From contig QAIB01000001.1 of the NCBI GenBank assembly GCA_030418545.1, forward strand, positions 310,001 to 374,000: 64,000 nt of DNA, given 5' to 3'. Of the stretch, positions 6,909-11,115 are shown in pieces (the first letter of the stretch is position 1; every line of letters begins with the position of its first letter). Origin of the DNA: Xenophilus aerolatus (lineage in GTDB: Bacteria; Pseudomonadota; Gammaproteobacteria; Burkholderiales; Burkholderiaceae_C). The notes below the pieces were generated by a model. The model had not been told where the DNA came from. It saw only the letters and a list, made by a program, of their open reading frames with translations, and searched no databases. The position numbers and the translations under genes were made by a program.

Positions 6909-7799
6909 ATGAAGCCCAACCAGCTCCACGCCTTCGCGGCCGTCGCCGCGCAACTGAGCATCCGAGGCGCGGCGCGCGTGCTCGGCATCTCGCAGCCGGC
7001 GGTGACGAAGATCGTGCGCGAATTGGAGCGGGAAGTGGGCGCGCCGCTGGTCGAACGCAGCGTCAAGGGTGTGCGCCTCACGACCTACGGCCAGGCCTTC
7101 GCACCGCGCGCCCGGCAACTGCTGGAGGACATGCGCCGCGCGCGCGACGAGATCGCGCAGATCCGCGACGGCGTGCGCGGCCGCGTGGCCCTGGCGGTCA
7201 GCACGTCCTTCGCTCTGACGCTGCTGCCGCCGGCGTTCAAGGAGTTCCATGCGCGCCTGCCCTCGGTCGACGTGCATTTCAGCGAGGCGGTGTTGCCGGC
7301 CATGCTCACCCAACTGCTCGACGGGCGGCTCGATTTCGCCGTGGCGCACATCGTGCCGGGCACGCTGGGGCCCGAGTTCGACAGCACCGAGCTGTTCCAG
7401 GTCCAGCTGGTCATCGGCGTGCGCCGCCGGCACCCGCTGCGGCACGCGCGCTCCCTGCTCGAGTTGCACGGCGCGGAGTGGGCGCTTCCCGGCGACGGCG
7501 AGGCGGCGCGCGACGCGATCGCGCCCTTGTTCGCCCCGATGGGACTGTCGCCGCCCGCGCGCGTGGTGCAGGGCCAGTCGGTGACCGTGGCGCTGGCCCT
7601 GGTGGGTCACATGGACCTGGTGGGCATGTTCGTGGAGCCGCTCGAAAGCCTCGCCTTCCGCCAGCATGGGGTGGTGCGCGTGGCGCTCGACGAGGCGCTT
7701 CCCGCGCTGCGCGTGTGCGTCATCCGGCGCCGCGGCCATGCCCTCACGCCGGCGGCGCAGCAGTTCGTCGAATGCATCCAGCGCTGCGCGCAGCGCTAG
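6909..7799 (+). CDS. LysR-family regulator of the MHS/M14 operon
   Basis: A 296-residue LysR protein: N-terminal winged helix (residues about 3-60, with GAARVLGISQPAVTKIVRELEREVG) and a periplasmic-binding-protein-like effector domain from about residue 90. ATG 6909 gives the usual MKPNQLHAFAAVA start; an upstream GTG would read through the operator dyad. It is divergent from the MHS transporter/M14 peptidase operon and probably controls it in response to the imported substrate. Its stop overlaps that of the convergent TpsB gene by 4 bases. Confidence 0.9.
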   Translation: MKPNQLHAFAAVAAQLSIRGAARVLGISQPAVTKIVRELEREVGAPLVERSVKGVRLTTYGQAFAPRARQLLEDMRRARDEIAQIRDGVRGRVALAVSTSFALTLLPPAFKEFHARLPSVDVHFSEAVLPAMLTQLLDGRLDFAVAHIVPGTLGPEFDSTELFQVQLVIGVRRRHPLRHARSLLELHGAEWALPGDGEAARDAIAPLFAPMGLSPPARVVQGQSVTVALALVGHMDLVGMFVEPLESLAFRQHGVVRVALDEALPALRVCVIRRRGHALTPAAQQFVECIQRCAQR

Positions 7800-9496
7800 C
7801 GTTCGCCGAGGTTGTAGGTCAGCAGCAGGGTCAGCCGCGCGCGGCGCAGCGGGTTGTTGGCGCTGGGGTCGCCCGTCGGCTTGGCGACGGCCACGTCCAG
7901 GTTGTAGTGCTTGCCGTCGGTGAAGCGCGCCCCGAGGGCCAGCGAGCGCAGCTTGCGCGGCGAGGGCTCGCCCTGCTTGAACGACACCTGCGCGGCCTCG
8001 GCCAGCACATAGGGCTCCACCTGCTTGAGCCAGTTGCCGCCCTCCAGCTTGAACAGGCGGTTGACCTCCAGGCCCAGGCCCCAGCCCGAGTCGCCGGCCG
8101 CATCGCCGGCCGCGTAGCCGCGCCCGAAGCGCTGGTTGCCGAAGGAGACGCGTTCCGAACTGGCCAGCGTGTGCGGGCTGTACTGCGCGCCGAAGCTCAC
8201 GGCCGTGCCCCACTGGTTGTCGAAGCGGTCGCGCTGGCTCAGGTCGAGCGCCAGGCGTGTGAAATCGAGCTTGGCGGGGTTCGTGCCCGCCACGCCGGCC
8301 ACGTTGCTGCGCTGCTCGGCCAGGGCACCCATGGCACGCAGGCCCTGGGCCAGCATCACGCTGGCGCTGCGGCTGCGCGTGGCGGTGGCGTCCAGGTAGC
8401 TCAGCTGCGCGAACAGCGCCCGCACGCGGGTGTCGTCGTCGAGCCGGGTGCCGGTCAGCGGCACGCGGTAGTCGTCGAGGTTGTTCACGGCGTAGAAGCC
8501 GCCGCTGAGCGTGAGGCTGCGCTGGGCACTCAGCAGCAAGGGATAGCTCGCCGAGAGCTCGGCCCGGCGGTTGGTGTTGCGGCGCTCGATGCGCGAGCCG
8601 CGGTCCATCGCCTCGTCGGGGTAACCGCGGTAGTGGGTGTACGCGGCCTTGAATGCCAGTCCGTCGGCACCGACGAGTTGCGTGTAGCTGGTGGTCAGCA
8701 GCGCCTCGTTGCGCGGGTTGCCCAGCAGGGTGGAGGCGCTGAGCTGGCCCCCGGCGATGAAGGGGTCGTTGATCACGCCGGTGAGCACCGCCCGCGGCGT
8801 GGGCTGGCGCAGGTCGGCGCCCAGCGAGATGTCGTAGGGCCGGCGCTTCACCGCCAGCACGAGGGTGGTGGCACCGTCCGTGGTGCCGGGCAGCGCCGCC
8901 GTCGCGTTCACGGTGAGGCCGGGCAGGCGCGCCATGAGCTGCGTCGCGCGCTCGAAGGTGGCCTGGCGCAACGGCCGTTCGGCGCGCAGCGTCTCGGCCA
9001 TCGCGCGCAGGCGTGCTTCCGAGGGGCCGGCATCGCCCTCGATGCGGACGTTGGCGATGTAGCCCTCGACCGCCACCACCCGCACGATGCCGCCGTCGAA
9101 GGACTGTTCGGGCACGTAGACGAAAGCCAGCGGGTGGCCGCGTTCCTTGTACAGCGCGGTCGCTTCGCGCGCGGCCTGCACCAGCCGGGCCACCGGCACC
9201 GACTGGCCGGCCAGCGGCGCGAAGAAGGCCGCGAGCTCGGCAAAGGGCAGGGCGTTCACGCCCTCGATGTCGAAGCGCGAGGGCGTGATCGTCTGGCCCA
9301 TCCGACCGGCCGCCTGGGCCGGTGTCTGCACGTCCACCTGCGCCCTCTGGGCCGGCACCGGCGCCTGCGACGCGGGCAACGGCAACTGGTCGAGCGGGTT
9401 GCCGGCTGACTGGGCGTGGGCTGTCGCCCAGCCCCCAGCGCTCAGGGCAGCCGCGATGCCGACTTTCAGAAGGGGGTGGGACGCACGTCTTCTCAC
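7796..9496 (-). CDS. Outer-membrane transporter, FhaC/ShlB (TpsB) family
   Basis: A 566-residue Omp85-superfamily protein. It has a signal peptide (cleavage near AHAQ), a proline-rich linker, POTRA-like domains at about 70-145 and 146-220 (FDIEGVNALPFAELAAFF...; VRIEGDAGPSEARLRAM), then a 16-stranded barrel-type region with alternating aromatic strands. Loop 6 shows the hallmark R459-G460-Y461 (RFGRGYAAGD), equivalent to the VRGY motif. The family secretes large beta-helical TpsA proteins across the outer membrane. Here the gene overlaps the upstream lipoprotein gene by 4 bases, so the two are translationally coupled, yet no classical TpsA is nearby. Confidence 0.9.
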   Translation of the reverse strand: MRRRASHPLLKVGIAAALSAGGWATAHAQSAGNPLDQLPLPASQAPVPAQRAQVDVQTPAQAAGRMGQTITPSRFDIEGVNALPFAELAAFFAPLAGQSVPVARLVQAAREATALYKERGHPLAFVYVPEQSFDGGIVRVVAVEGYIANVRIEGDAGPSEARLRAMAETLRAERPLRQATFERATQLMARLPGLTVNATAALPGTTDGATTLVLAVKRRPYDISLGADLRQPTPRAVLTGVINDPFIAGGQLSASTLLGNPRNEALLTTSYTQLVGADGLAFKAAYTHYRGYPDEAMDRGSRIERRNTNRRAELSASYPLLLSAQRSLTLSGGFYAVNNLDDYRVPLTGTRLDDDTRVRALFAQLSYLDATATRSRSASVMLAQGLRAMGALAEQRSNVAGVAGTNPAKLDFTRLALDLSQRDRFDNQWGTAVSFGAQYSPHTLASSERVSFGNQRFGRGYAAGDAAGDSGWGLGLEVNRLFKLEGGNWLKQVEPYVLAEAAQVSFKQGEPSPRKLRSLALGARFTDGKHYNLDVAVAKPTGDPSANNPLRRARLTLLLTYNLGER

Positions 9497-11115
9497 CGGC
9501 GAAGACCTCCGATCAGGCCGCCCACGGTGCCCGTGAGCGTGTTGACCGCCGACGTGGTGGTGTTGCTCAGCGTGGAGGTCGTGGACGACAGCGTGTTGCT
9601 CAACGTCGAGCCCGCTGCGGTCAGCGTGCCCGTGGGCGAAGAAGTGGCCGTCGACAGCGTGTTGCCGAGCCCGGATGTCGCGGTCGACAGCGTAGTGCCG
9701 AGCCCGGAGGTCGTGGTGGAGATCGTGTTGCCCGCGCCGGTGGTTGCCGACGACAGCGTGTTGCCGACCACCGGCGCCGTCGACAGCGCGGTGCCGAGGC
9801 TGTTGGTGGTGCTGGCCACGGTGCTTCCCAACGCACTGGTGGTGGAGGTCAGCACGCTGGTCGTGGTGCTCAGCGCGTTGCCGGCGGTGCCGGTGACCGG
9901 CGCCAGTGCGGTGGTGACCCCGCCGACCGTGTTGCCCAGGCCTGCCGTGCTCACACCGGCGCCCGCGCCGACGCCCGCCGACACCCCGCCCGGGCCCGTG
10001 TTCACGCCGCCGCCGAGTCCCAGGCCCGCCGTGACGCCCAGCAGTCCGCCGAGGCCTGCGCCGCCCGTGCCGCCGTTCGGCGCGTTCACCAGGTCACCGG
10101 CATTGCCGACCGTCGTGCCCAGCGCGTTGGTCACGCCATCGGCCTGGTCGCCAGGCAGGGCGCTGCCGACCTGCTTGATCGCACCCCCCAGGCGATCGGT
10201 GAGGCCGTCCAGCGGCGCGCCGAGGCCGGTCGCCTCGCCCACGCCCTGGGTGGCACCGACGAGCTGGCGGTCGACCGCCACCACCACTTCGCTCGTACGG
10301 CCGGTGACCTGGCGCACGGCGCCATTGCCGAGCACGTCGCCCACCCGGCCGCCCACTTCGCCGACGCCGTCGCCCACCCGGTCGACCAGGCCACCCACGG
10401 GCTGCGTGACGGCGGCCAGGGGCGTGCCGGCCCCCAGCGTCCCGACCCCGGTGCCGACGCTCGACACCGCCGTGCCGACCTGGCGCACCGCCGGGTCGGC
10501 GCTCGAGAGCGTGGTGCCCACCGGGTCGCTGGTCTCGCCGAGCTTGCCCAGGCCGTTGGTCACGCCCTGGCCCAGGGTGCTGACCGCCCCGCCGGTCGCG
10601 GTGACCGCACCACCCACGCCGGCCGTGGTGCCGCCGAGCGGCGTGCCGCTGCCCACCTGGCCGAGCTGGCCGCCCAGGGAGCCGACGAGCTGGCCAGTCC
10701 GGTCGACGGTCTGCCCGGCGGACTGGATGATGTTGTTGCTGGCCGCCAGGGCCCGGTCGGGCGTGGTGCCTCCACCGCCCGACCCACCGCCGCCGTCGCC
10801 CGGGGTTCCGCCCCCGCCGCCCGTGCCGCCACCGCCGCCGGCTACGCCGGTGCCGCCGCCCGAGCCCGCACCTCCGCCTGCGCCCGTGCTGCCGCCGCCC
10901 GACGCATTGGTGCCACCGCCTGCGCCGGCGGTGCCTGTGCCGCCCTCGCCGCTGCCGCCGCTGATCGCCGACGGCGCCCTGCTGCTGGTCCCGCCGAAGC
11001 CCAGCGAGGTCGAGCCCTTGGACGCGCAGGCGCCCAGGGTCGACAACGCCGCCACGGCCGCCATCACGGCAGCCAGCCTGCCGAGGCGAAAGTCCTTCTG
11101 ATTCGAAGCGTTCAT
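9493..11115 (-). CDS. Low-complexity, Gly/Ser/Thr-rich lipoprotein (candidate TPS partner)
   Basis: A 540-residue lipoprotein: signal sequence with lipobox LSTLGAC (Cys30, followed by Ala, so outer-membrane sorting is expected), a Gly-rich stretch at about 47-115 that automatic pipelines might call collagen-like, a long Val/Gly repeat region (VGGLVDRVGDGVGEVGGRVG), and a Thr/Ser-rich C-terminus of 11-residue repeats (LGTTLSTATSG, LGNTLSTATSS). There is no TPS secretion domain with an NPNG/NPNL motif. It overlaps the TpsB-type transporter by 4 bases. ATG 11115 is preferred because AGAGGA precedes it; ATG 11139 is possible. It may be a surface-exposed fibrous lipoprotein; function unknown. Confidence 0.8.
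   Translation of the reverse strand: MNASNQKDFRLGRLAAVMAAVAALSTLGACASKGSTSLGFGGTSSRAPSAISGGSGEGGTGTAGAGGGTNASGGGSTGAGGGAGSGGGTGVAGGGGGTGGGGGTPGDGGGGSGGGGTTPDRALAASNNIIQSAGQTVDRTGQLVGSLGGQLGQVGSGTPLGGTTAGVGGAVTATGGAVSTLGQGVTNGLGKLGETSDPVGTTLSSADPAVRQVGTAVSSVGTGVGTLGAGTPLAAVTQPVGGLVDRVGDGVGEVGGRVGDVLGNGAVRQVTGRTSEVVVAVDRQLVGATQGVGEATGLGAPLDGLTDRLGGAIKQVGSALPGDQADGVTNALGTTVGNAGDLVNAPNGGTGGAGLGGLLGVTAGLGLGGGVNTGPGGVSAGVGAGAGVSTAGLGNTVGGVTTALAPVTGTAGNALSTTTSVLTSTTSALGSTVASTTNSLGTALSTAPVVGNTLSSATTGAGNTISTTTSGLGTTLSTATSGLGNTLSTATSSPTGTLTAAGSTLSNTLSSTTSTLSNTTTSAVNTLTGTVGGLIGGLRR
9496..9768 (-). repeat. Degenerate 33-bp tandem repeats encoding hendecads
   Basis: The last 91 codons of the lipoprotein are built from about seven 11-residue units of the form (L/V/A)GNTLSTATSG, later units being more divergent (LSNTLSSTTST, LSNTTTSAVNT), followed by a glycine-rich LTGTVGGLIGGLRR tail. 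At the DNA level this is a degenerate 33-base periodicity. Confidence 0.7.

Follow-up and report, generated by a model that had tools for sequence, protein, structure and literature searches.

In two-partner (type Vb) secretion, an outer-membrane transporter, TpsB, exports a partner protein, TpsA. Heinz and Lithgow described each TpsB as serving one dedicated substrate, characteristically haemagglutinin-like, and did not find TpsB subfamilies beyond FhaC and Hmw1B (PMC4104836). The orientation of the cargo as it emerges, with its N-terminus inside or outside, has been called unclear (PMC8151025). Here we describe a gene pair in a 64,000-nt stretch of Xenophilus aerolatus contig QAIB01000001.1 (positions 310,001-374,000; hereafter the window), in which the gene for a TpsB-type transporter overlaps that for a lipoprotein of the Pfam family Collagen_mid.

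The Bcc-CLP adhesins described from Burkholderia cenocepacia belong to Collagen_mid. Five CLPs of this species have been named, and BCAL1522 is listed beside BCAL1523 and BCAL1524 without a TpsB label (PMC10224339); it is a 1686-bp outer-membrane gene annotated as related to heme utilization. BCAL1524 is present in outer-membrane vesicles, and its deletion lowers auto-aggregation, a defect that can be complemented (PMC10303873). BCAL1520, BCAL1523 and BCAL1524 are induced along with nearby flp pilus genes upon contact with host membrane vesicles (PMC7970998). The main text of PMC10224339 names no TpsB partner (the terms 'shlb', 'two-partner' and 'potra' occur 0 times). Nor did we find, in the parts of the open-access literature searched, any description of a lipidated two-partner cargo or of a link between the Collagen_mid family and TpsB.

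An original prediction, made from the letters of the window, had read the lipoprotein as a possible lipidated cargo of the adjacent TpsB, leaving room for a true TpsA elsewhere with the lipoprotein as an accessory. Here we report how the pair is distributed across genomes. Lipoproteins of this kind and one clade of TpsB transporters are dedicated partners. Genome comparison supports the first of the two interpretations: the pair is probably a two-partner secretion system, a distinct lipid-cargo branch of type Vb that displays adhesins.

Results

The gene pair in the window

Both genes lie on the minus strand exactly where they had been placed. The lipoprotein gene (positions 9493-11115, ATG start) encodes 540 residues, and the TpsB gene (7796-9496, GTG start) encodes 566; the stop codon of the former and the GTG of the latter share four bases (9493-9496). 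A candidate TpsB start giving the identical 4-base overlap is present in the close relatives G001, G009 and G010.

The identity predicted for each protein holds. The transporter scores over the curated cut-offs for Pfam POTRA_2 (51.2 bits, cut-off 24) and ShlB (49.6 bits, cut-off 22.7) and carries the expected RGY within a loop-6 FGRGY motif (8114-8128). Residues 162-347 of the lipoprotein match Collagen_mid (PF15984) at 128.9 bits, against a curated cut-off of 31.1. Typical TpsA cargo has a non-lipidated signal peptide and an N-terminal TPS domain (PF05860) with NPNG/NPNL motifs. The window lipoprotein (P0002) has neither: it carries the lipobox LGAC (11026-11037) with its cysteine at residue 30, has no Pfam TPS match at E <= 1 and contains no NPN, the absence noted in the original prediction.

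Lipoprotein and transporter occur together

Genomes were sampled at four levels: 15 from the genus, 299 from the family, 399 from the order and 398 from the phylum. Collagen_mid exceeds its curated cut-off in 10 family, 10 order and 13 phylum genomes (overlapping sets), 29 in total with the genus. Sub-cut-off matches in G030, G046, G226, G366, G703, G749, G811, G889 and G1010 were left out. In 28 of the 29 genomes a POTRA_2 protein (searched for in 23 + 6 genomes) lies within 5 kb of one Collagen_mid copy; in the 29th, G007, a TpsB orthologue sits at a contig end. Lipoproteins lacking the transporter in most genomes, a pattern that would count against a dedicated pair, were looked for in this way and did not appear. 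Within the genus, a TpsB orthologue (75-100% identity) and Collagen_mid are found in the same 7 of 15 genomes. Every paired genome but two has at least one Collagen_mid copy that precedes TpsB on the same strand; in G511 and G540 the order is reversed. Orphan lipoproteins, of which G558 and G587 have three each, turned up only in genomes that also have the pair. The pairing is more than local: it holds in 28 of the 29 genomes and again in two larger samples. In G017 (L124) the pair looks broken, with TpsB in three frames and an odd lipoprotein C-terminus, which reflects either decay of the pair or a fault in the assembly.

The reverse question, what partners a TpsB of this type, was asked with a profile, A1, built from 25 CLP-adjacent TpsBs. 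In the order it picked out 10 of 399 genomes, with scores of 649-754 bits. In the family it picked out 9 of 299 (638-754 bits) and, in addition, G017 with its three-frame TpsB; in both samples these are the same 10 genomes that Collagen_mid had found. The chance of identical sets of 10, were genomes independent, is about 4e-20 (order) and 7e-19 (family), values that are formal only because the genomes are related and the profile was itself built from such members. The informative part of the scan is that genomes without lipoproteins of this kind never scored near the clade members.

Four order genomes scored in between, G380, G334 and G496 at 477-491 bits and G472 at 366. A lipobox protein is encoded directly upstream in G380 and G334, three are within 7 kb upstream in G496, and one lies about 2.4 kb away on the opposite strand in G472; all carry repeats of a related, PVT/LLGG type. 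In G496 (L200, 4412-6127) one of the lipobox proteins upstream of the clade-related TpsB has true Gly-X-Y repeats followed by LLAPVTGLLGG repeats. At the next-best family scores (206-242 bits; G016, G158, G212 and G028) the partners are 1351-1887 residues long (two run off the fetched stretch) and TpsA-like by eye, as is the partner in G523. Four further loci, L202 (238 bits), L204, L206 and L207, show neither a lipoprotein nor a TpsA-like partner.

With a closer profile, A3, we took the best 80 of 202 relatives and fetched up to 8 kb on each side. This 80-locus set comes from Cupriavidus, Ralstonia, Collimonas, Glaciimonas, Pandoraea, Paraburkholderia, Caballeronia, Burkholderia, Sulfuriferula and a few relatives. 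TpsB is present at 80 of 80 loci and a lipoprotein lies upstream on the same strand at 77. Of the other three loci, one is a 3-kb contig and two belong to Pandoraea genomes that each have three lipoproteins elsewhere. A profile of our own, built from 25 TPS domains and read at >40 bits, detected a TPS domain at 0 of 80 loci within the fetched stretch. A classical TpsA always beside homologues of the transporter, the arrangement that would have counted against the original prediction, was not what these loci showed. Only TpsB (21) and the lipoprotein (19) form protein clusters that are present in at least 19 of 21 diverse neighbourhoods; the remaining two neighbourhoods hold lipoproteins of another, related repeat type. 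Among the clusters next in frequency, which occur at no more than 13 loci, are antisense frames and what look by eye like tad/flp pilus genes. In L134 (G587, 10.7-16 kb), L128, L133, L135 and L209 the pair adjoins such pilus-like genes, by eye a prepilin peptidase, CpaB/CpaC/TadZ-like proteins and an ATPase.

A transporter clade and the search for a hidden TpsA

A tree was built from 67 of 71 TpsBs, leaving out rows that were identical or shorter than 450 residues: 27 adjacent to Collagen_mid, 33 with a PF05860 match within 20 kb and 7 others. G007 was assigned to the CLP class by hand. The 27 fall on one side of a branch with support 100/100, the 40 others on the opposite side, and the clade has a stem of about one change per site.

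Searching the window's genome for TpsA genes, as the original prediction had proposed, gave one PF05860 match, on another contig (C2:99471) and 1.6 kb from a TpsB of its own. The same search of 31 whole genomes (six phylum genomes lay outside it) returned no match in six, all of which have the pair: G017, G032, G243, G428, G511 and G540. In G017 (its pair frame-broken), G032, G243 and G511 the TpsB of the pair is also the sole POTRA_2 match. The suggestion that the true TpsA lies elsewhere is weakened by these six genomes.

The window's genome encodes four ShlB proteins and two Collagen_mid proteins in all. The second Collagen_mid lipoprotein (L040, G000:C11:288655-289179) is about 30 kb from TpsB, 21 kb outside the window, and by eye has an ABC transporter on one side and a small exported protein on the other. 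G001, G007 and G010 have a similar copy, at a distance of 22-24 kb from the pair. Two further TpsBs, closely similar to each other (L044, G000:C10:8838, and L045, G000:C43:80762), have no PF05860 match nearby. G001 (C1:98874) and G007 (C13:44765) each have a TpsB of like POTRA score, with a TPS-domain match directly upstream. A search of viral contigs with the window protein P0001 returned no relative.

Lipoprotein sequence

Behind the lipobox, with alanine at +2, the lipoprotein has a Gly/Ser/Thr-rich spacer (residues 31-118; 10762-11025), the Collagen_mid domain, in which long helices are predicted (10075-10632), a Thr/Ser/Leu/Gly region (residues 395-540; 9496-9933) and, at its end, the tail GGLIGGLRR (residues 532-540; 9496-9522), all read from the minus strand. 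The lipobox and, by eye, low-complexity stretches flanking Collagen_mid on both sides place it with the Bcc-CLPs.

The original prediction called this a hendecad-repeat protein, which is right for its C-terminal third. There the hendecads are real, since hydrophobic residues in 395-540 recur at lags 11, 22 and 33 with z of 5.2, 4.1 and 4.1 against 500 shuffles. Residues 120-350 are instead heptad-like (lag 7, z 5.9; lag 11, z 3.2; same test). The protein is not a true collagen, having no run of four or more G-X-Y triplets (non-Gly X, Y); longer runs occur in a few relatives, such as the 35 triplets of G464:C173. In some relatives the spacer contains GTS, GGT or Gly-X-Y repeats. In the spacers of L162 (G587 C2) and L132 (G558 C18), Gly-X-X triplets, almost all of them GTS, form runs of 73 and of at least 48, a pattern suggesting that stalk length varies through DNA repeats.

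A predicted model of the Collagen_mid domain is helical (pLDDT 67.3, pTM 0.49), with helices of 34 and 31 residues at pLDDT of about 81-91 and a fair third (about 70-78); from residue 148 the model is poor. With this model Foldseek found nothing at E 0.001, the best hit being a designed antiparallel four-helix coiled coil at E 0.2. A sequence search of the PDB with the Collagen_mid profile returned coiled-coil or viral chains, at best E 0.007, which are not meaningful.

The lipobox is conserved. It is found in 45 of 45 lipoprotein genes with an intact N-terminus in the sampled genomes (41 by script, 4 by eye; two more genes, cut by contig ends, stand outside this count), and all 41 read by script have Ser, Gly or Ala at +2. 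In the 80-locus set, 119 of 126 lipoprotein frames have it, 106 with Gly, Ala or Ser at +2; the seven frames without it are cut by contig ends (4) or short or apparently frame-broken (3). In E. coli, Asp at +2 keeps a lipoprotein in the inner membrane, a rule that is species-specific (PMC5472700).

Conservation also marks the other end. Most lipoproteins of the family finish in a tail rich in Gly and Leu whose final residue is Lys, Arg or His. One of these three is the last residue in 79 of 89 family representatives and 85 of 418 other genes of the 80-locus set (odds ratio 31); the K/R/H background inside the proteins is 1.7%. The 89 were chosen out of 172 sequences on the basis of shared 4-mers, and some of them may be frame-broken. 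A C-terminal PVTxL-type motif is not general (61 of 174).

Transporter fold and motifs

The AlphaFold2 model of TpsB (mean pLDDT 83.7, pTM 0.77) predicts the fold of a two-partner transporter, with, by our reading of the DSSP line, two POTRA domains and a 16-stranded barrel. The first POTRA domain (9062-9283, minus strand as throughout) is the Pfam POTRA_2 match, and the second (8843-9061) is taken from the predicted structure. Among solved structures, Foldseek ranked CdiB (6wim, E 3.5e-27) first and FhaC (E 1.3e-24) next. Residues 1-34 of the mature protein, the site of a possible plug helix, are modelled mostly below pLDDT 50, with a helix of 4 residues only.

Two motifs set the clade apart. 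The mature N-terminus bears GNPLDQLP (9380-9403), a form of the clade pattern GNPLDxLP; the strict pattern is found in 17 of 29 CLP-type TpsBs and 0 of 42 others. Omp85 proteins characteristically have an arginine in the loop-6 motif. It is kept in 40 of 40 other TpsBs and in 18 of 27 sampled clade members. None of the 74 readable Burkholderiales members of the 80-locus set has it (six of the 80 rows were not read by the pattern), Leu or Gln mostly standing in its place.

Discussion

How would such a pair work? The lipoprotein would be synthesized with a signal peptide, receive its lipid at Cys30 and then travel to the outer membrane; both acylation and sorting are expected because a lipobox is present and Asp is absent at +2. 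In the absence of a TPS domain for its POTRA domains to bind, the dedicated TpsB would take the low-complexity passenger through its barrel to the surface. There the N-terminal lipid would hold the passenger as an adhesive fibre of repeats that promotes aggregation. One TpsB may serve several lipoprotein paralogues of a cell. We infer that the TpsB exports the lipoprotein; this is the simplest interpretation, as no other cargo is constantly available. Where the lipid ends up is a guess: we place it in the outer leaflet because one TpsB appears to serve several lipoproteins.

Several observations weigh against this account. Thirteen of 43 Collagen_mid matches are more than 20 kb from any POTRA_2 match or on another contig. 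Scoring in the large samples was confined to the best first-look candidates of each genome, 7-10 for Collagen_mid and 3-5 for the transporter profile, and misses there are possible. High A1 scores of clade TpsBs are expected, because A1 was built from CLP-adjacent TpsBs. The four order genomes with intermediate scores (G334, G380, G496 and G472) are not among the listed Collagen_mid genomes of that sample, and the upstream partners in G334 and G380 have Asp at +2. In the 80-locus set the +2 residue is Leu or Val in 11 of 119 lipoboxes and Asp in 2. The tree program issued a long-branch warning that included CLP_G1041 and the neighbouring row TPS_G112_C1_3875361. PF05860 may miss divergent TPS domains, as the two other TpsBs of the window's genome without a match nearby indicate. 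The presence of a homologue in vesicles is by itself no proof of exposure, and in the parts of the open-access literature searched we found no transport, surface or acylation experiments on a pair of this kind.

Could the lipoprotein instead be a fixture of its own transporter? In one alternative, which we consider unlikely yet worth keeping in mind, it would permanently plug its TpsB. The N-terminal lipid and a spacer of about 90 residues (31-118) ahead of the helical part would suit such an arrangement, and the leaflet of lipidated type V proteins was not determined according to PMC8151025. One clade TpsB faces five lipoprotein genes in G558 and again in G587, which speaks against a plug, although these are numbers of genes, not of molecules. 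Far less probable is the accessory described in the original prediction, in which the lipoprotein would be a periplasmic plug, chaperone or tether and the true cargo a TPS-domain protein elsewhere. A predicted periplasmic lipoprotein, BcpO, does occur in some Burkholderia CDI loci (PMC5422565), and the window's genome has a TPS-domain gene (C2:99471) and other TpsBs. That gene, however, has its own TpsB 1.6 kb away; six genomes hold the pair without any PF05860 match, and in four of them (G032, G243, G511 and G017, which looks broken) the CLP-adjacent TpsB is the sole POTRA_2 protein. Up to five lipoproteins per clade TpsB also fit an accessory poorly, and the repeats and the vesicle location of the homologue suit cargo better than a plug.

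Least probable of all, in our judgement, is that the lipoprotein surfaces by another route, Slam-like or through Bam, and shares an operon with a TpsB of unrelated role. Slam does move surface lipoproteins (PMC9090332), and a PDB entry title records that BamA binds the lipoprotein RcsF. Against this stands co-occurrence with a single TpsB clade across families and orders. A chance operon is ruled out by the pairing in 28 of 29 genomes, by the two larger samples and by the switch of partner outside the clade.

The secretion reading can be carried further, in a tentative form that we regard as possible but doubtful. The TpsB lineage may have replaced the TPS code: with the N-terminus fixed by lipid, the C-terminal Gly/Leu tail, Lys, Arg or His last, would enter the POTRA domains and the pore first, the passenger would exit C-terminus first, and the barrel would hand the lipid to the outer leaflet. 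A role for the tail as a signal is a hypothesis drawn from its conservation. If true, two-partner secretion would here run with its polarity reversed and would flip a lipid as well. A cargo whose N-terminus is fixed to lipid is a natural probe for the orientation in which cargo emerges and makes that question testable. More broadly, a clade with lipoproteins as constant partners widens type Vb secretion, and it suggests an export partner for the lipoprotein family to which a studied B. cenocepacia protein belongs.

Comparison with known systems

The window pair resembles FhaC, CdiB and ShlB (type Vb) in having an Omp85-superfamily transporter with two POTRA domains, a predicted 16-stranded barrel and a loop-6 motif beside an adjacent partner gene. 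It differs in its putative cargo, which is predicted to be lipidated, has no TPS domain, is predicted to be helical or of low complexity and is mostly encoded upstream; TpsAs, unlike Collagen_mid cargo, are mostly predicted beta-helices (PMC8151025). The transporters differ too, the clade having its own GNPLDxLP N-terminus and missing the loop-6 arginine in 9 of 27 sampled and 74 of 74 readable 80-locus members. With the CLPs of the Burkholderia cepacia complex (Bcc-CLPs; PMC10224339, PMC10303873) the lipoprotein shares its Pfam family, lipobox and low-complexity flanks. G587 has the same layout as BCAL1522-1524, with a clade TpsB of 561 residues, and from layout and length we infer that BCAL1522 is a member of the clade.

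Two other systems bring lipoproteins and outer-membrane barrels together. NalP and SphB1 (type Va) are type V passengers with a lipobox, the final leaflet of the lipid being undetermined (PMC8151025); their passenger is fused to its own barrel, whereas here barrel and passenger are separate genes. Slam, a single outer-membrane barrel, moves lipoproteins to the surface and has been likened by its authors to two-partner secretion (PMC9090332). The window transporter, in contrast to Slam, has POTRA and ShlB domains. To our knowledge, Slam is not an Omp85/TpsB protein.

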